Positions 32,755 through 41,665 of a stretch of 64,000 bases of DNA are shown piece by piece. The notes below the pieces were generated by a model. It was not told the DNA's origin. It saw nothing but the letters and a program-made list of their open reading frames with translations, and did no database searches. Position numbers and translations under genes: made by a program. The DNA comes from Chloroflexota bacterium (GTDB lineage Bacteria > Chloroflexota > Anaerolineae > Anaerolineales > UBA4823), in contig JAAYXE010000121.1 of assembly GCA_012516075.1 (NCBI GenBank), positions 1-64,000 on the forward strand, read 5' to 3'. Numbering within the stretch: the stretch's first letter is position 1; each line of letters starts with the position of its first letter.

Positions 32755-33348
32755 TCAGGCGTGCTTCTTCACCACCACATACGCCATGACCCCCTCCGTA
32801 ACCACCTGCTTCTGACTCCCTGCCTCCGGGAACAGGCCCGCAATCGCCTCCGGCTCCAGAAAGCGGCTGCGCATCAGGGCCGCCTTCTCCGCCAGGGCCA
32901 GCAGGCGCACCACCAGGCGCCTCAGGTCAGGCTCTTCGATGACAATCGTTCCCCCCGGTTTCAACACCCGCCACAGTTCCCGGGCCGTATGTTCCTGAGA
33001 AGCCACATGGTGCAGCGCATCCACCATCAGGATGCGCTCGACAGAGCGGCTCGCCAGGGGCAGCTTCTCGCTCTGCCCGCGCAGCACGCCCAGTTCGTCC
33101 TTCTGGCGCGCCTGCTGTAGCATGCTCCAGTTCTCATCCAGCACCACGACCGGCTGGCCTTCTGCCCTCAGCAGCTGCGCCACGCGGCCCGTCCCGCCGC
33201 CCACATCCACCACCGGGCCAGAAGCGGGAAGGTCCAGCAGTTCCAGCAGGCGAGCGTCCCCGTGCGGCGGAATGATGCGCTCATACCAGGGCGCCACAAG
33301 CTTGAAATGGTCGATCACGGGATTCCCCCTGGCTGACCGTAAATTCAT
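32755..33348 (-). CDS. Class I SAM-dependent methyltransferase (Methyltransf_11-like)
   Basis: This 197-residue methyltransferase has the SAM-binding motif VVDVGGGTGRVAQLL (near residue 46), the acidic VVVLDENWSML, and SEKLPLASRSVERILMVDALHHV as motif II/III. ELWRVLKPGGTIVIEEPD is the post-motif typical of UbiE-like enzymes. The substrate is unknown. Its start codon overlaps the stop of the upstream lipoprotein gene by one base (TGATG), so the two are translationally coupled. Confidence 0.85.
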   Translation of the reverse strand: MNLRSARGNPVIDHFKLVAPWYERIIPPHGDARLLELLDLPASGPVVDVGGGTGRVAQLLRAEGQPVVVLDENWSMLQQARQKDELGVLRGQSEKLPLASRSVERILMVDALHHVASQEHTARELWRVLKPGGTIVIEEPDLRRLVVRLLALAEKAALMRSRFLEPEAIAGLFPEAGSQKQVVTEGVMAYVVVKKHA

Positions 33349-33962
33349 CAGCGCACCAGCATCGGCAGGTGCACCTTTCCCACAGGGACCTCTTTGAAGT
33401 TGATCAGCACCAGGTTTTTGCTGCAGTCGGCGGAAGTTTGAAACGCAACTTTTTCGGAGATTGGGTTGCCGTTGAGGTCCTTGAGCTGCACTGTAAGGGC
33501 CCCCGCTGAGGAGGCCAGCGGCTGGTCTGCCAGGGTGACATCAAATCCCCCCGGGCCCAGGTTCTTGTTCGTGCCGGTCATCCCGGTTGCCAGGACCGGC
33601 TTACCGCCCAGAGTCCCTTCGACCTCCACCACGATTTTGTCCACCGCTTTCCCGCTCATGTCAAAGACCTGGCCGCCGACGCCGGTCCAGTTACAGCCGA
33701 CCTCCGGCCGGGCGATATTGGGGATGTAAGCCGGCGTCCCGGCCTGCTTGCTGAACTCTCGGCTCGCGGCCTGCCCGGGCGCGGCCAGCCCGGCCAGCAG
33801 TTCGCCTTCGGATGAATCCTCTGCGCCGTGCTGCGCGGCATTCTCCTGATGTGGAAGGGCCGCATTTTCGGTGGGCGCAGCCACCTGGGGGCCGGCAGCC
33901 GAACACCCGGCCAGGAAGATCATCACCAGTAAAATGTAACCGCTGAACCTGCTTCGCACCAT
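33348..33962 (-). CDS. Predicted lipoprotein of unknown function
   Basis: This 204-residue protein has a lipoprotein signal (YILLVMIFLAGC; lipobox LAGC, Cys20). A low-complexity Ala/Glu/Gln linker follows. A beta-rich domain starts near residue 85 with CNWTGVGGQVFDMSGKAV and KIVVEVEGTLGGKPV; a second Cys lies in TSADCSKNLV. This reads like a carboxypeptidase-regulatory or Ig-like beta-sandwich, but I do not recognise the family. It is coupled to a methyltransferase gene by a one-base overlap. The divergent his promoter lies just upstream. Confidence 0.75.
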   Translation of the reverse strand: MVRSRFSGYILLVMIFLAGCSAAGPQVAAPTENAALPHQENAAQHGAEDSSEGELLAGLAAPGQAASREFSKQAGTPAYIPNIARPEVGCNWTGVGGQVFDMSGKAVDKIVVEVEGTLGGKPVLATGMTGTNKNLGPGGFDVTLADQPLASSAGALTVQLKDLNGNPISEKVAFQTSADCSKNLVLINFKEVPVGKVHLPMLVR

Positions 33963-34017
33963 CCAACCTCCTTATGAAAACACGTCTTCATTATAAACAG
34001 TTTTGCGGTCAATTTCG

Positions 34018-34046
34018 TTGACAGAACCAGAGGGGCGTGATAAACT
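34018..34046 (+). promoter_or_regulatory. his operon promoter
   Basis: TTGACA (34018-34023) is a perfect -35, followed by a 17-base spacer and TAAACT (34041-34046). Initiation would fall near 34052-34053, only a few bases before the leader-peptide ATG at 34056. Confidence 0.82.
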
Positions 34047-34055
34047 CGCCCCACG

Positions 34056-34109
34056 ATGAAAACGCCGCTTACCGCTTCTCATCATCATATCCGCCATTCC
34101 CCCGCCTGA
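34056..34109 (+). CDS. hisL: his operon leader peptide
   Basis: This 17-codon frame encodes MKTPLTASHHHIRHSPA, with four His among residues 9-14, and ends in TGA at 34107-34109. It lies between a consensus-like promoter and a rho-independent terminator just upstream of hisG. That is the classic arrangement for ribosome-mediated attenuation, in which low charged tRNA-His stalls the ribosome on the CAT codons (34080-34097). No ribosome-binding site precedes it, and the predicted transcript start is about 3 bases upstream, so translation may be leaderless. The frame is too short for standard ORF calling. Confidence 0.85.
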   Translation: MKTPLTASHHHIRHSPA

Positions 34110-34170
34110 CCGGAGGTCTGGTCCTTTTCGCGTACCCATGCGTTTCCACCCCCGGTCACGGGGGTTTTTT
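34109..34170 (+). promoter_or_regulatory. his attenuator: antiterminator and terminator
   Basis: The terminator stem ACCCCCG (34148-34154) and CGGGGGT (34159-34165), loop GTCA, runs into TTTTTT. ACCGGAGGT (34109-34117), which overlaps the leader stop codon, can pair with ACCCCCGGT (34148-34156) with one A-C mismatch and would block the terminator. A ribosome stalled on His codons leaves 34109-34117 free; one at the stop codon covers it. Confidence 0.78.
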
Positions 34171-34188
34171 GTTTTATGAGTTAAGGTG

Positions 34189-35214
34189 ATGAACAACCAC
34201 TCCGTCCGTATCTCGCTTCCTTCCAAAGGCCGCCTGGCCGAGAGCTGCCTGAACTTCCTGGCGGACTGCGGCCTGGCGGTGGACAAAACCAACCCGCGCC
34301 AGTACGAAGCGCGCATCCCAAGTCTTCCCGGTCTGGTGGTCCTCTTCCAGCGCCCGGCGGATATTGTGGTCAGCGTGCGCGACGGCAGCGTGGATTTCGG
34401 CATCACCGGCATCGATGTCATCGAAGAGCGTAAGGGGAACGCCGGTGAAGTGCTTATCCTGCACGACGCCCTGGGCTTTGGCCAGTGCGTACTCGCCCTG
34501 GCGGTCCCCGAATCCTGGGAAACGGTGAGCGACATGTCAGACCTCAGGGCATTCGCCGCCCGTTCTGCCGCCCCGCTGCGCGTGGCAACTAAATTTCCTT
34601 TCCTCACCGGGCGCTTCCTCGACCAGCACGCCGTCCCGCACACGCTGATCTCGGCGGAGGGCACCCTGGAGACCGCCCCGGCCATCGGCTATGCCGACCT
34701 GATCGCCGACCTGGTCTCCTCCGGGCAGACACTGCGCGACAACCGTCTCAAGCTGCTCGCCGGCGGGGCGATCCAGAGATCCCAGGCGGCACTGATCGCT
34801 AACCGCCGCGCCCTCGAAAGCAATCCCCAGGCCCTTGCGGTGGCCCGCCACCTGCTCGAGTTCTTTGAAGCCCACCTGCGCGCTGCCGAGAACCTGGCCA
34901 TCTTCGCCAATATCCGCGGGGAATCGCCCCAGGCCATCGCGGCGCAGATCTTCGCCATGCCCACCCTGGGCGGTCTGCAGGGACCGACCATCTCGCAGGT
35001 GATCGTCCGCGAGGGTTCACCCAACTGGTTCGCCGTGCACATCATCGTGCGCCGCGACCAGCTCTTCCAGGCCGTCTCCGAGCTGCGCCAGATCGGTGGC
35101 AGCGGTGTGGTCGTCGCGCCGGTGAGCTATATCTTCGAAGAGGAACCGCCGCGCTACAAAGCCATGCTCGCTGCCCTGCAGAGGATCCCGGAAAGCAGCT
35201 CCGTGAAAGGATAG
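34189..35214 (+). CDS. hisG: ATP phosphoribosyltransferase, long form
   Basis: HisG catalyses the first step of histidine synthesis, joining PRPP and ATP. At 341 residues it is longer than the E. coli form (299). It has the N-terminal SLPSKGRLAESCLNFL, the substrate-site motif DFGITGIDVIEE and a PRPP-binding loop near SAEGTLETAPAIGYADLIADLVSSG. The C-terminal regulatory part is present, so it should be the HisZ-independent long form with feedback inhibition by histidine. ATG 34189 has only AAGG at short spacing; a GTG one codon earlier is possible. It is the first structural gene after the attenuator. Confidence 0.93.
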   Translation: MNNHSVRISLPSKGRLAESCLNFLADCGLAVDKTNPRQYEARIPSLPGLVVLFQRPADIVVSVRDGSVDFGITGIDVIEERKGNAGEVLILHDALGFGQCVLALAVPESWETVSDMSDLRAFAARSAAPLRVATKFPFLTGRFLDQHAVPHTLISAEGTLETAPAIGYADLIADLVSSGQTLRDNRLKLLAGGAIQRSQAALIANRRALESNPQALAVARHLLEFFEAHLRAAENLAIFANIRGESPQAIAAQIFAMPTLGGLQGPTISQVIVREGSPNWFAVHIIVRRDQLFQAVSELRQIGGSGVVVAPVSYIFEEEPPRYKAMLAALQRIPESSSVKG

Positions 35215-35217
35215 CCC

Positions 35218-36558
35218 ATGTTCAAGATCTACGATCCCCAGACAGCCGCACAGACGATTTTACAGCGCCGCCCGCCCGATGAAGTTACCATTCCTGAAAG
35301 CCTGCAGGCCCGCATTGCCGGCCTCTTCGGCGAGCCGCTCTCGCCCGATCAGGCCGTGCGCCGCATCCTCCAGGATGTGCGCCAGCGCGGCGACGCTGCC
35401 CTGGAAGAATGGGCCTGCAAACTGGACGGCGCCGCCCCGGCTGGTTTCCGTGTCCCGGAAGACCAGATCCAGGCTGCGCTGCAGGCCATCCCACCCGAGG
35501 TGAGAACCGCCCTGCAGCAGATGGCGGAGCGCATCGAAGCCTACCACCGCCGCCAGCCGCTCACGTCCTGGTTCACCCACGACCTGGGCGGCGTGCTTGG
35601 CCAGGTCGTGCGCCCGATCCGCCGCGTGGGCCTGTACGTTCCCGGTGGAGCCACGCCGCTGCCGTCCTCGGTGCTGATGTCGGCCCTGCCGGCGCGCGTC
35701 GCCGGTGTCCCCGAGATCGTGGTGGTCTCCCCGCCCGAACGCTCCAGCGGTCAGATACCCGCCCCGGTCCTGGCTGCCTGCGCCATCGCCGGCGTTCAGG
35801 AGGTGTATGCCCTGGGCGGGGCGCAGGCGATCGCTGCGCTGGCGTACGGCACACAGTCGGTGCCGGCGGTGGATAAGATCTTTGGCCCGGGCGGCCTCTT
35901 CGTCACCCTCGCCAAACAGCAGGTCTTTGGCGTGGTCGGCATCGACGGGCTGGCCGGCCCCACCGAAACGGTCATCATCGCCGACGATACGGCCCGGCCG
36001 TCCTGGGTTGCCGCAGACCTGCTCGCCCAGGCCGAACACGATGTGCTCGCCTCGGCCGTGCTGCTCACCCCTTCCCGCCAATTGGCGGAAGCCGTCCAGG
36101 CTGAGATCTCCCGCCAGGTGGAAGAGCGTTCCCGGGCGGAGATTATCACCGTCTCGCTGGAGAACCGCGGCGGGGCGGTCATCACCCGCGATCTGGACCA
36201 GGCCGCCGAGCTGGCCAACCGCTTCGCCCCCGAGCACCTCTGCCTGGCCGTGCGCGATCCCTGGGCTCTGGCCGGTAAGCTCACCGCGGCCGGCGGCCTC
36301 TTTCTGGGCGAGCACTCCTTCGAAGTGCTGGGTGATTACATTGCCGGCCCCAGCCATGTGATGCCCACAGGCGGATCCGCCCGCTTTGCCTCCCCGCTCA
36401 ACGTCTGGGACTTTGTGCACCTGGTCAGCCTGGTGGCGCTCGACCCGGGCACCGCGGCGGCCATTGCTCCCCAGGCTGCCCGCATCGCCCGCACCGAAGG
36501 ACTGGACGCGCACGCCTATGCGGCCGGGCTGCGCCTGGAAGGGGGAGAAGCAGCATGA
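35218..36558 (+). CDS. hisD: Histidinol dehydrogenase
   Basis: HisD carries out the last two steps, oxidising histidinol to histidine with two NAD+. The 446 residues are close to the family norm. IRRVGLYVPGGATPLPSSVLM is the NAD-domain signature. DKIFGPGGLFVTLAK, AGPTETVIIAD, LLAQAEHDVLASAVLL (zinc ligands) and NRFAPEHLCLAV (catalytic Glu-His) are present, as is GEHSFEVLGDYIAGPSHVMPT. It starts 3 bases after hisG and overlaps hisC by ATGA. Confidence 0.95.
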   Translation: MFKIYDPQTAAQTILQRRPPDEVTIPESLQARIAGLFGEPLSPDQAVRRILQDVRQRGDAALEEWACKLDGAAPAGFRVPEDQIQAALQAIPPEVRTALQQMAERIEAYHRRQPLTSWFTHDLGGVLGQVVRPIRRVGLYVPGGATPLPSSVLMSALPARVAGVPEIVVVSPPERSSGQIPAPVLAACAIAGVQEVYALGGAQAIAALAYGTQSVPAVDKIFGPGGLFVTLAKQQVFGVVGIDGLAGPTETVIIADDTARPSWVAADLLAQAEHDVLASAVLLTPSRQLAEAVQAEISRQVEERSRAEIITVSLENRGGAVITRDLDQAAELANRFAPEHLCLAVRDPWALAGKLTAAGGLFLGEHSFEVLGDYIAGPSHVMPTGGSARFASPLNVWDFVHLVSLVALDPGTAAAIAPQAARIARTEGLDAHAYAAGLRLEGGEAA

Positions 36559-37661
36559 TATACCAGAACCCTGCCCGGTGGGTGGTGGACCTGCCGCCCT
36601 ACACGCCGATCGAACCCTTCGAAGTGCTCTCGGTGCGCCTGGGCCGCCGCCCGCAGGACATCGTCAAGCTGGACGCCAATGAAAACCCCTACGGCCCCTC
36701 GCCGCGCGCCCGGCAGGCTCTGGCGGAGCTGCAGTTCGCACATATCTATCCCGATCCCGAAAGCCGTGCCCTGCGCCAGGCGCTGTCTGATTTCACGGGT
36801 GTTCCGGCTGAATTCCTGCTCTCCGGCGCCGGGGCGGACGAGCTCATCGACCTGCTGCTGCGCGTGATGCTCGAGCCGGGCGACAGGGTGATCACCTGCC
36901 CGCCCACCTTCGGCATGTACGCCTTCGGCACCCGCCTGAACGGTGGTCAATTGGTCGAAGTCCCCCGCCGTCCCAATTTCTCCCTGGACCTGCCCGCCCT
37001 GCAGCAGGCAGTGAACGACCTGCAGCCGAAAATGCTCCTCCTGGCCTCGCCCAACAACCCCGACGGCTCACTGCTCTCCGACCAGGAGCTGCATGCGCTG
37101 CTTGAGCTGCCCGTCCTGGTGGTGCTGGACGAGGCCTACATCGAGTTCAGCGGCCTGGGAGCCCTGGGGGAGCAGGGCAGCCGCATCAGCGCTGTACCCC
37201 AGCGGGATAACCTCGTCGTGCTGCGCACGTTCAGCAAATGGGCCGGCCTGGCCGGGCTGCGCGTGGGCTACGGCGCTTTTCCCGCCTGGCTGCTGCCGGC
37301 GCTGTGGAGGGCCAAGCAGCCGTATAATGTCAACGTCGCCGCTTCCGCCGCCGCCCTGGCTTCCCTGGAAGACCGGGATTACCTGGCGGGGATCGCGGCC
37401 TCTCTGCGCCAGGAGCGCGAACGCCTGCAGCGCGAGCTCGGCCGGCTGTCGTTCCTGCAGCCTTACCCGTCCTGCGCCAACTTCGTCCTCTGCCGGGTGC
37501 CGGACCGCAGCGCTCGCGAACTGAAAGAGACCCTGGCCGCCCAATACGGGATCCTGGTGCGCTACTTCGATTCTCCCGGCCTGCGGGACCATATCCGCAT
37601 CAGCGCCGGCCGGCCGCAGGATACCAACAGCCTGCTTGAGGCGCTCGCGGCCCTGGAATAA
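36555..37661 (+). CDS. hisC: Histidinol-phosphate aminotransferase
   Basis: HisC is a 368-residue PLP aminotransferase that converts imidazole-acetol phosphate to histidinol phosphate. [14 protein letters not shown] is the N-terminal HisC signature. [11 protein letters not shown] and [11 protein letters not shown] hold the cofactor contacts, and the PLP lysine is in [32 protein letters not shown] gives the C-terminal substrate Arg. It overlaps hisD by 4 bases; hisB starts 10 bases after it with AGGAGGAG in the gap. Confidence 0.94.
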
Positions 37662-37671
37662 GGAGGAGAGC

Positions 37672-38787
37672 ATGAAAACTGCCCTGATCGCCTATGATGA
37701 CATGAGCGCCTTTGACTTCACCGCCCTGTATGCGGTATTCCGGGAGGTCCCCGCTGCCGAGATCGAGATCTGCGGGCTGACTTCACCGGTCACGGCCGCC
37801 GGCGGGCTGAGCGTGCTCCCCGGCCAGACCGGCCAGTCTCTGCAGGCGTACGACCTGCTGCTCGTCCCGGGCGGGGATGCGGCCGCTCACCGGGCTCAGG
37901 ATTCGGAATTCACGACCTGGCTGCGCTCGGCGGAGGGCGTCCCGATGAAAGCCGCCTGCGGTGACGGTGTGCTACTGCTGGTCTCGGCTGGTATGCTGGA
38001 CCAGGGGCTGGCCGGAACGCAGACCGGGGAGGAAGTTCTGCTTCTCGTTAATGGCTCAGATCCACAGGCGGACAGAGTGCTGCGCTTTCCATCACCGCGC
38101 GAGCTCGGCCGCCGCCTCGCCCGGGGTCCCCTTGAAGCACAGGCCGCTGCCCCTTCAACCCACCACACCTCTGGTTCCGCACCCCGCAGCGCCCGGGTGG
38201 AACGCCAGACCAGCGAAACCCGGGTCCGCATCGAACTGAACCTGGACGGGACCGGCCACCACCGCATCGCCACCGGGGTTGGCTTCCTTGATCATATGCT
38301 CACCCACGTGGCCGTGCACGGGCTCTTCGACCTGGACCTGCAGGCCAGCGGGGATCTGCATATCGACGTGCACCACACCGTGGAAGATGTCGCTCTGGCG
38401 CTCGGGCAGGCCTTCAATCAAGCGCTGGGCGACCGGTCCGGGATCACCCGTATGGCGCATGCCTGTGCCCCCATGGACGAGACGCTCGCCTTCGCGGCGG
38501 TCGATCTTTCCGGCCGGCCTTACGCGGTCATCGATGCACAGTGGGATACGCCAGCCGTGGGCGGAATCCCCACCTCGCTTTTCGCCCATTTCTTTGAATC
38601 GTTCGCCGTTACGGCGCGCTGCAACCTGCACGCCCGCCTGCTCGCCGGGCGCGACGATCACCACCGGGCTGAAGCGCTGTTCAAAGCCTTCGCCCGCGCC
38701 CTGGACCAGGCGTCCTGCCTGGATCCGCGCCGCTCTGCCGCTGGCGGGCTGGCCATTCCTTCCACCAAAGGAACCCTCACGGCATGA
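37672..38787 (+). CDS. hisB: DJ-1/PfpI-like domain fused to imidazoleglycerol-phosphate dehydratase (HisB)
   Basis: This 371-residue protein has two parts. Residues about 1-135 resemble the DJ-1/PfpI (class I glutamine-amidotransferase-like) fold: [33 protein letters not shown], and a nucleophile-elbow-like [20 protein letters not shown] with Cys. After a Pro/Ser-rich linker, residues about 172-371 form a full dehydratase: [67 protein letters not shown] and closing PSTKGTL. The metal-binding His/Glu clusters are intact. Enterobacterial HisB instead has an N-terminal HAD phosphatase. I know of no common DJ-1-HisB architecture. The start has AGGAGGAG 3 bases upstream, and the frame is unbroken across both domains. 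Confidence 0.9.
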
Positions 38788-38810
38788 GAACCGGCGGAGA
38801 TAGATAGAAG

Positions 38811-39437
38811 ATGACAACCCGACCTGATGTGATCCTGATCGACGCCGGCGTGGGCAACCTGCGCTCGGTGAACAAAGCCCTGCAGAGCCTGGGCGCCAGC
38901 GTGCTCCAGACTGCCGACCCGGAGGCCCTGGCATCCGGCGAGCCGCTGGTCCTCCCCGGGGTGGGCGCCTTTGGCGATTTCATGCGCGGCCTGCAGGAGC
39001 GCCGTCTGGCCCCGGCTGTGCTCAGCGCCGTGCGCGGCGGCGTCCCGCTCCTGGGCATCTGCGTCGGGATGCAGGCGCTTTTCGAGTGCAGCCTGGAGAT
39101 GGGCCGGCACCCGGGCCTGGGGCTGCTCCCCGGCCGCGTGCTGCCCTTCCCCGCGCAGCCCGGGTTGAAGATCCCCCACACGGGATGGAACCAGTTGATC
39201 CCCCGCAAGCCCGAACCACTGCTGCGGGGGATCGCCGCCGGCGATTACGCCTACTTCAACCACTCCTACTACTGCGAGCCGGCAGGAGATGCAGACGCAG
39301 TTGCAGCCGAGACCGACTACGGCCTGCGCTTCACCAGCGCCATCCAGCAGGGTAACCTCTACGCCGTGCAGTTCCATCCCGAGAAAAGCCAGAAGGTCGG
39401 GCTGCAGGTATTAGCCAACTTCCTCTCGCTGTCGTAA
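38811..39437 (+). CDS. hisH: Imidazole glycerol phosphate synthase, glutaminase subunit
   Basis: HisH is a 208-residue class I glutamine amidotransferase that supplies ammonia to HisF. It has the N-terminal IDAGVGNLRSVNKAL, PGVGAFGDFMRGL, the catalytic Cys in GICVGMQALFE, and the His-Glu pair in VQFHPEKSQ. HTGWNQL and YFNHSYY are typical HisH. It lies 23 bases after hisB. Its partner hisF is two genes downstream, with hisA between, as in many his operons. Confidence 0.95.
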   Translation: MTTRPDVILIDAGVGNLRSVNKALQSLGASVLQTADPEALASGEPLVLPGVGAFGDFMRGLQERRLAPAVLSAVRGGVPLLGICVGMQALFECSLEMGRHPGLGLLPGRVLPFPAQPGLKIPHTGWNQLIPRKPEPLLRGIAAGDYAYFNHSYYCEPAGDADAVAAETDYGLRFTSAIQQGNLYAVQFHPEKSQKVGLQVLANFLSLS

Positions 39438-39452
39438 GTGGGAAACATAAAT

Positions 39453-40232
39453 ATGGAAGAAAGCCCTCAAAATTTACCCTCATCTCTTGAGGACTCTCCC
39501 CCGGCGGAGCGCTTCACCGTTTACACCGCCATCGACCTGCGCGGCGGCCAGGTGGTGCGCCTGCAGCAGGGCGACCCGGGCCGCCAGACTACCTTTTCAA
39601 GCGACCCGGCGGCCGTCGCCCGCCGCTGGCTGCAGGCCGGGGCCCGCTGGCTGCACGTGGTCAACCTGGACGGAGCGTTCGACCAGGGCGACGCCGAGAA
39701 TCAGCGAGCCCTGGCGGCCATCCTGGAGCAGGCCGCCAGGTATGGGACCCGGGTCCAGTTCGGCGGGGGCCTGCGCAGCCTTCCGGCGCTGCACAAAGCC
39801 TTCGAGGCCGGTGTCGAGCGCGCGGTGCTCGGCACCGCGGCGGTCGAACAGCCGGATCTGCTCGCCCTGGCGCTGGAGACCTTCGGCCCAGGGCGCATCG
39901 CCCTGGGCCTGGACGCACGGGGTGGGATGGTCAGCGTGCGCGGCTGGGGGCAGACCACGACCGTACAGGCCGGAGTACTCGCTCGCCGGGCTGCCGCCCT
40001 CGGGCTGCGCTGGGCAGTGCACACTGATGTGGCCCGCGACGGCATGGGCGCCGGGTTGAATGTGGAGGCCTCGCTGGACATCGCCCGGGGCAGCGGACTG
40101 CAGGTGATTGCCTCCGGGGGTGCTGGCAGCCTTGAGGATATCCAGCGCGCCCGCCGCGCCGGCCTGGCCGGAGTGATCGTCGGGCGGGCCCTGTACGAGG
40201 GCGCCATTCCGCTCGAGGCTGTCGAATGGTGA
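39453..40232 (+). CDS. hisA: ProFAR isomerase (phosphoribosyl-formimino-AICAR-ribotide isomerase)
   Basis: HisA is a TIM-barrel isomerase for the fourth pathway step. The 259 residues carry the general-base Asp in [13 protein letters not shown] and the second Asp in [14 protein letters not shown]. Phosphate-binding FGGGLRS and [11 protein letters not shown] sit in the two halves. The N-terminus has an extra about 22 residues ([19 protein letters not shown]) before the barrel. I start at ATG 39453, although its ribosome-binding site is modest; an in-frame GTG at 39438 directly after the hisH stop is possible. Confidence 0.93.
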
Positions 40233-40236
40233 TCTC

Positions 40237-41019
40237 ATGTTGAGCAAACGCATCATTCCCTGCCTCGATATTCACAACGGCCGGGTGGTCAAAGGGGTGA
40301 ACTTCACCAACCTGCGCGACGCCGGCGACCCGGTGGAGCAGGCGCGCATTTACGACACTGCCGGCGCGGATGAGCTGGTCTTCCTGGATATCTCGGCCAC
40401 GCATGAAGGCCGCGCCACCATGGCGGATGTGGTCCGCCGGGTAGCCGACCAGGTCTTCATGCCGCTGACGGTCGGAGGTGGTATCCGCTCCCTGGAGGAC
40501 ATGCGCCAGATCCTGCTCGCCGGCGCTGATAAGGTCAGTGTCAACTCGGCCGCGGTGCGTAACCCCGACCTGCTCACGCAGGGCGCCCGGCGCTTCGGCT
40601 CCCAGTGCATTGTGCTCGCCATTGACGCCCGCCGCATCCCTGCAGCAGACGGCCAGGAGCCGGCCTGGGAGGTGGTAATCGGCGGCGGGCGGGTGGACAC
40701 CGGGCTGGATGCCGTCGAATGGGCCCGGCGCGGCGTAGAGCTGGGCGCCGGTGAGATCCTGCTCACCAGCATCGACCGTGACGGCACCCGTGATGGCTAC
40801 GACCTGGAACTTACGCGCCGCATCACGGAGGCTGTGTCCGTCCCCGTCATCGCTTCCGGAGGAGCCGGAGAGCCGCGTCACTTTCGAGACGTGCTCGTTG
40901 AAGCAGGCGCCGATGCGGCGCTGGCCGCCACCCTGTTTCACGACGGCCTGCTCGCCATCCCCGACCTCAAAGCCTATCTCGCCGCACAGGGAGTGCCGGT
41001 GCGGCCTTATAAAAGCTGA
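40237..41019 (+). CDS. hisF: Imidazole glycerol phosphate synthase, cyclase subunit
   Basis: HisF is a 260-residue TIM barrel that forms imidazole glycerol phosphate and AICAR. It opens with [20 protein letters not shown], holding the catalytic Asp. It has [15 protein letters not shown], the phosphate loop [11 protein letters not shown], the second catalytic Asp in [13 protein letters not shown], and VIASGGAG near the end. It begins 4 bases after hisA. It works with HisH as the synthase heterodimer. Confidence 0.96.
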
Positions 41020-41027
41020 AAACGAAT

Positions 41028-41378
41028 ATGAGCGCTGAAATCACCCCCAATTACGATGCCCGCGGGCTGATCCCCGCCGTGGTCCAGGATGCCGCCAGCG
41101 GTGACGTGCTCATGCTGGCCTGGATGAACGACGAAGCCCTGCGCCTCACCCGCAGCACGCGCCAGGCGCACTTCTGGTCCCGCAGCCGCCAGGAGCTCTG
41201 GCACAAAGGTGCCACCTCCGGCAGCTTCCTGCACGTCGTCGAGATGCGCCTTGACTGCGACCGCGATGCTCTGCTGCTGCGCGTGCACCCCGCTGGCCCC
41301 GCCTGCCACACCGGGCGGGACAGCTGCTTTTACCAGTCTCTGGATCTATTCACCACACCGCAGGAAGAAAACCCATGA
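41028..41378 (+). CDS. hisI: Phosphoribosyl-AMP cyclohydrolase
   Basis: HisI is a 116-residue zinc enzyme that opens the purine ring of phosphoribosyl-AMP (third step). It carries [15 protein letters not shown], the family [15 protein letters not shown], the metal-binding triad in [12 protein letters not shown], and the Cys pair in [13 protein letters not shown]. It is separate from HisE here, unlike the fused enterobacterial HisIE. It overlaps hisE by ATGA. Confidence 0.95.
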
Positions 41379-41665
41379 CCCTTGCCGAGCTTTACGAAAT
41401 CATCTGCGACCGCCGCGATCACCCCATTCCCGGGTCTTATACCGCTTCTCTGTTCCAGCAGGGAGAGCTTGAGATGGCTAAAAAGGTGGGCGAAGAGGCG
41501 GTAGAAATTGTGCTCGCTGCCGCCGCACAGGGAGACCGCCGCCTGGTGGAAGAGGTCGCCGACCTGGCCTACCACGTCCTCGTGCTGCTGGCTGCCCGCG
41601 GGATCCACCCCGAACAGGTCCTGAATGAGCTGGAGCGCCGCCACCGGCCCCCTGCCCATGAATAG
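41375..41665 (+). CDS. hisE: Phosphoribosyl-ATP diphosphatase
   Basis: HisE is a 96-residue MazG-like all-helical pyrophosphohydrolase that removes pyrophosphate from phosphoribosyl-ATP (second step). It has [24 protein letters not shown]-type sequence with the metal-binding Glu residues in [11 protein letters not shown], and [14 protein letters not shown]. It overlaps hisI by 4 bases and the following HAD gene by 8 bases. Confidence 0.94.

Follow-up and report, generated by a model that had tools for sequence, protein, structure and literature searches.

Ribosome-mediated attenuation of the histidine operon is a textbook principle. In the hisL attenuator of Escherichia coli and Salmonella, a His-rich leader peptide and competing antiterminator and terminator structures precede hisG, the first gene of the his operon, and the same elements are found at the Chloroflexota locus described here. 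In the accessible portions of the literature, peptide-based his attenuation is named for the Proteobacteria, the Actinobacteria and some Firmicutes (PMC9413887, PMC2965389, PMC1262725). Candidate his attenuators were predicted in the Bacillus cereus group, the Peptostreptococcaceae and the Erysipelotrichales of the Firmicutes, according to the portion available of PMC9413887, and candidate attenuators of hisS and hisZ were predicted in bacilli, according to that of PMC2965389. Leaderless leader peptides have been described for trpL of Sinorhizobium meliloti (PMC7298713) and for leuL, trpL and ilvL of Streptomyces lividans (PMC8079986). A 2008 study (PMC2494555) described T-boxes at trp genes in two Chloroflexi. 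No earlier report of a his attenuator from the Chloroflexota was found in the literature searched, and a claim to a first report is provisional.

The window analysed here is a stretch of 64,000 nucleotides from a Chloroflexota bacterium of the Anaerolineales (contig JAAYXE010000121.1). On its plus strand an open reading frame of 17 codons, MKTPLTASHHHIRHSPA*, extends from 34056 to 34109 without a Shine-Dalgarno sequence in front of it. The frame contains three consecutive His codons at 34080-34088 and a fourth at 34095-34097, followed by Ser-Pro-Ala codons that include the motif CCCCCG (34099-34104, plus strand). The leader stop codon is covered by TGACCGGAGGT and overlaps with the antiterminator strand ACCGGAGGT at 34109-34117. 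An intrinsic terminator follows at 34148-34170 on the same strand, consisting of a hairpin (34148-34165) with the stem ACCCCCG/CGGGGGT and the loop GTCA, and a T tail; when 33950-34250 was scanned for terminators, this was the sole match. The 5' arm and the beginning of the loop form ACCCCCGGT (34148-34156), to which ACCGGAGGT pairs at 8 of 9 positions with one A-C mismatch. Within the antiterminator loop lies a small hairpin, CGCGU-ACCC-AUGCG (34129-34142, plus strand). The reading frame, the terminator and the pairing over the stop codon had been noted in a first-pass annotation of the sequence, and all were recovered at these positions.

Upstream of the leader, a sigma-70-like promoter is predicted on the plus strand at 34018-34046 (TTGACA, 17 nt, TAAACT, with a TG before the -10 box), of which 0.1 are expected in shuffles. 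Between the end of the -10 box and the leader ATG lie 9 nt. From this geometry, the transcription start is predicted at about 34053-34056 with a 5'UTR of about 0-3 nt, leaving only about 95 nt up to the terminator. The leader region folds better than its own shuffles (z -3.4), and the antiterminator duplex has -17.1 kcal/mol, compared to a mean of -8.9 kcal/mol for shuffled leaders, with 0 of 100 shuffles being as good. Folding showed that the motif at 34099-34104 also pairs with the 3' arm of the terminator and lengthens the antiterminator, so that both terminator arms are tied up in the antiterminator state. A His codon run with GACCGG and CCCCGG at the right spacing occurs a single time in the 4.86-Mb genome, at the window locus. 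The promoter and the additional pairing to the 3' arm were overlooked in the first-pass annotation; the clade-wide distribution and the probable leaderless start, which are described below, are further additions to it.

Downstream of the leader, the his operon is complete (34186-41665). It starts about 16 nt past the terminator with hisG (34186-35214, plus strand), encoding the long form of ATP phosphoribosyltransferase with a HisG_C domain. The remaining genes, all on the plus strand at 35218-41665, are hisD, hisC, a DJ-1/PfpI-hisB fusion, hisH, hisA, hisF, hisI and hisE. The gene upstream of the leader (33348-33962) is on the minus strand. Because this gene is divergent, an upstream operon is ruled out as the owner of the terminator, which can act on the leader transcript alone. 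In the fusion at 37672-38787, HisB (imidazoleglycerol-phosphate dehydratase) carries an N-terminal DJ-1/PfpI domain according to Pfam. Among the family genomes searched, only G012 has a comparable arrangement within a single open frame; the others matched the HisB part only. In the window genome (G000, 97% complete), no match to the N-terminal domain of TrpE or to the LeuA dimer domain was found. The genome thus keeps the full his operon without trpE and LeuA matches, which hints at possible auxotrophies.

The position of a translating ribosome was simulated by holding a 27-nt footprint single-stranded during equilibrium folding. When the A-site was placed on any of the His codons at 34080-34088 (codons 9-11), the antiterminator had a probability of about 1.00 and the terminator of 0.00. 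When the ribosome was on the leader stop codon, the terminator probability was 1.00. Moving the ribosome to the fourth His codon (34095) tips the full-length fold towards the terminator (P 0.81), although a shorter transcript forms the antiterminator first. Folding under a ribosome mask, as suggested in the first-pass annotation, therefore gives the predicted switch with the antiterminator on the His codons and the terminator on the stop codon. Without a ribosome, the equilibrium fold of the window leader is the antiterminator; the default state of the untranslated leader cannot be told from such folding.

For comparison, hisG loci were drawn from the family, from named genomes of the GTDB set and from the phylum. 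The leaders were counted in those 107 loci that had 150 nt or more of upstream sequence, nearly all of them from Anaerolineae. A His-run leader was present before hisG in 102 of the 107, a conservation that the first-pass annotation had set as a test of its reading. The leaders always start with ATG and have 3-7 His codons in 15-35 residues. A terminator was detected with 84 of the 89 distinct leader ORFs, at a distance from hisG that varies widely among the relatives. Among the five exceptions, L013, L036 and L086 have other, apparently coding, sequence before hisG, L042 has its leader region cut by the contig end and L092 has a divergent leader (HLNHH) that was missed by the search pattern. 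In L013 (genome G002), an rpoB-like gene, apparently represented by its 3' end, directly precedes hisG. Between them lies a terminator but no His leader, and the attenuator was apparently lost after a rearrangement. Leader-free hisG loci were also sampled in families f6, f13 and f14 and in other classes. Since hisG follows closely behind another open frame on the same strand in almost all of them, the absence of the leader in these Chloroflexota groups says little.

Several designs can be distinguished among the leaders. Short ones, that of the window among them, have PPA* or SPA* at their end, and the antiterminator overlaps their stop codon. In longer ones, which comprise the HGREVYVRV, KDREILCAYLN and AGWLWRVG types, the antiterminator is located inside the ORF. 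In the long-leader group, a segment GCGCGTACCTG between the antiterminator strand and the terminator is strongly conserved (alignment A3, columns about 57-68). The window partly keeps it as CGCGTACC (34129-34142), and a CGCGTACC-like segment is found at the same place in many relatives. This segment may fold into a small hairpin within the antiterminator loop, or it may have another role.

For 68 of 84 distinct leaders, no more than 5 of 100 shuffles equalled the antiterminator pairing; the mean z was -2.8. Among 22 relatives the two strands were found to change together: GGTCGGG occurs with CCCGACC, GACCGGG with CCCGGTC and GATCGGG with CCCGATC, such that A-U/G-C and C-G/U-A pairs exchange together. 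In the alignment, 19 cells were changed on both sides, a count reached by 0 of 500 shuffles, with few independent events among them because many sequences share changes by descent. The signal was lost once the partner was slid. The pairing of 34109-34117 with 34148-34156, on which the first-pass annotation had staked its reading, is thus conserved and covarying in the relatives. From the end of the His run to the start of the antiterminator strand, the median distance in the 84 leaders is 16 nt with a standard deviation of 4.6. The distance from the antiterminator strand to the stop codon is far more variable (standard deviation 14.6). Such spacing fits a ribosome that, when stalled on the His codons, would set the position of the antiterminator. 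The pairing above shuffles, the covariation and the spacing speak for selection on an attenuation mechanism.

A leader was taken to switch in the simulation when a ribosome on the His run abolished the terminator and one placed three codons on restored it. This was observed for 42 of the 84 distinct leaders (52% of 96 before duplicates were removed), compared to 1.2% of shuffles in which the stretch between the His run and the terminator had been shuffled. The other half of the leaders showed no switch at equilibrium, mostly because the terminator is predicted to be too stable and wins. Folding during transcription, which lies outside the equilibrium simulation, favours the antiterminator as the earlier-made structure. 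Taken together, sequence and comparison show the parts of the element, their conservation, covariation and spacing, and a switch that is predicted from them.

According to the first-pass annotation, the leader has no separate protector hairpin. This stood for the clade: until strand 3 has been transcribed, the antiterminator strand pairs with sequence upstream of it at 0.48 in the leaders and at 0.48 in shuffled sequences, and no conserved protector hairpin was found. In the window, the motif at 34099-34104 can pair weakly with the antiterminator strand and is a candidate protector. The corresponding weak hairpin at 34093-34122 has a probability of 0.81 in a short transcript before the 5' arm of the terminator is made.

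The start of the leader transcript was analysed with 87 leaders of distinct upstream sequence, using the best promoter within 40 nt. The -10 box is positioned 6-11 nt before the ATG in 90% of the leaders, most often exactly 10, compared to 16% of shuffles; the statistic has a mild bias because the leader ATG was partly picked by promoter spacing. A Shine-Dalgarno-like tetramer was present in only 1% of the 87 leaders. The conserved spacing predicts that transcription starts at the ATG or up to about 4 nt before it, and the leader ORF is probably leaderless or nearly so.

T-boxes were detected in 121 of 121 Anaerolineales genomes searched, and in several (L208, L189, L190) they are located before trpE. 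This makes it conceivable that the hisG leader, too, harbours another sensor, a T-box or a metabolite-binding RNA, and that the His run is incidental. However, the his leader matched neither the Rfam family His_leader nor the T-box family RF00230, at the gathering score or at E up to 10, and no other cis-regulatory amino acid family of Rfam was matched at E up to 10 either. The roughly 95 nt before the terminator and the His run kept in nearly all loci also argue against such a sensor, which we regard as extremely unlikely. Somewhat less remote, and still very improbable, is a leader that controls translation, where stalling exposes or hides the start of hisG and the hairpin is secondary. The closeness of hisG to the terminator in the window would suit it, and attenuators acting on translation are known elsewhere, as described in the available part of PMC9413887. 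Against it, the 84 terminators have the full intrinsic form with a T-run, and with their widely varying distance to hisG a device that masks the start is hardly possible. Finally, a single ORF of 17 codons is short and could stand before an ordinary terminator by chance. The conservation, the covariation, the spacing and the shuffle controls oppose a chance ORF, which is already refuted by the comparative data and has next to no probability left.

We are very confident that the window element controls the his operon by ribosome-mediated transcription attenuation. The attenuation logic put forward in the first-pass annotation is supported by the conserved His run, the covarying antiterminator pairing and the mask folding. 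For the actual transcription start, the leaderless initiation, the termination and the response to histidine, we infer the following course. RNA polymerase would start at about 34053-34056 and a ribosome would load directly on the 5'-terminal AUG and translate the leader peptide of 17 residues. When charged tRNA-His is scarce, the ribosome would stall on the His codons at 34080-34088. The antiterminator strand at 34109-34117 would then be exposed just past its leading edge and pair with 34148-34156 once this is made, the terminator would be blocked, and hisG and the downstream genes would be transcribed. When histidine is plentiful, the ribosome would reach the stop codon and cover the antiterminator strand, the hairpin at 34148-34165 would form and transcription would end at the T-run near 34170.

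On very strong comparative evidence, these leaders extend peptide-based attenuation to a phylum that branches deeply, and they offer about 90 natural variants of one switch. The switch is testable in the cultured carriers Longilinea arvoryzae, Ornatilinea apprima and Leptolinea tardivitalis. If the leaders are truly leaderless, the question arises how ribosome and polymerase are paced when translation begins with the first nucleotides of the RNA and a protector hairpin is not conserved. With evenly divided confidence, we consider that the leaders may represent an order-wide, independently evolved class of Chloroflexota his attenuators with leaderless loading and coupling from the first nucleotides, which needs no conserved protector and exists beside the T-box control of other amino acid genes.

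Before trpE in the Anaerolineales, Trp-run leaders with a terminator were not found, and terminators and T-boxes were seen instead. In six loci (L184, L187, L192, L194, L196 and L199), a similar terminator of the TCCCTGT...ACAGGGA type precedes the trpE match by 210-290 nt. For the loci among them that were scanned, no Rfam T-box hit above the threshold was obtained; these elements are probably diverged T-boxes.

Compared with hisL of Escherichia coli and Salmonella, the leader described here lacks a match to Rfam His_leader, a Shine-Dalgarno sequence and a conserved protector hairpin, and its predicted 5'UTR is only about 0-3 nt long. The hisL peptide has seven His in a row, whereas the window has three consecutive His plus one, and the antiterminator here is placed over the stop codon or, in many relatives, inside the ORF. 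The Firmicutes candidates resemble the Chloroflexota leaders in layout, with a short peptide that contains three to five consecutive His codons, followed by an antiterminator and a terminator; they belong to another phylum and are not described as leaderless in the portions available of PMC9413887 and PMC2965389. In the leaders of Sinorhizobium meliloti trpL and of Streptomyces lividans, the ORF lies at the 5' end of the RNA and attenuation depends on the ribosome, as is predicted for those described here, but they respond to other amino acids in other phyla, and leaderlessness in the Chloroflexota is deduced from promoter spacing only. The T-boxes of the Chloroflexota, which are present in the same genomes, act on amino acid genes through premature termination, but they read the tRNA directly without a leader peptide, and none is found at the his operon. 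The his operon thus differs from its neighbours in using a leader peptide, and two attenuation systems lie side by side in these genomes.
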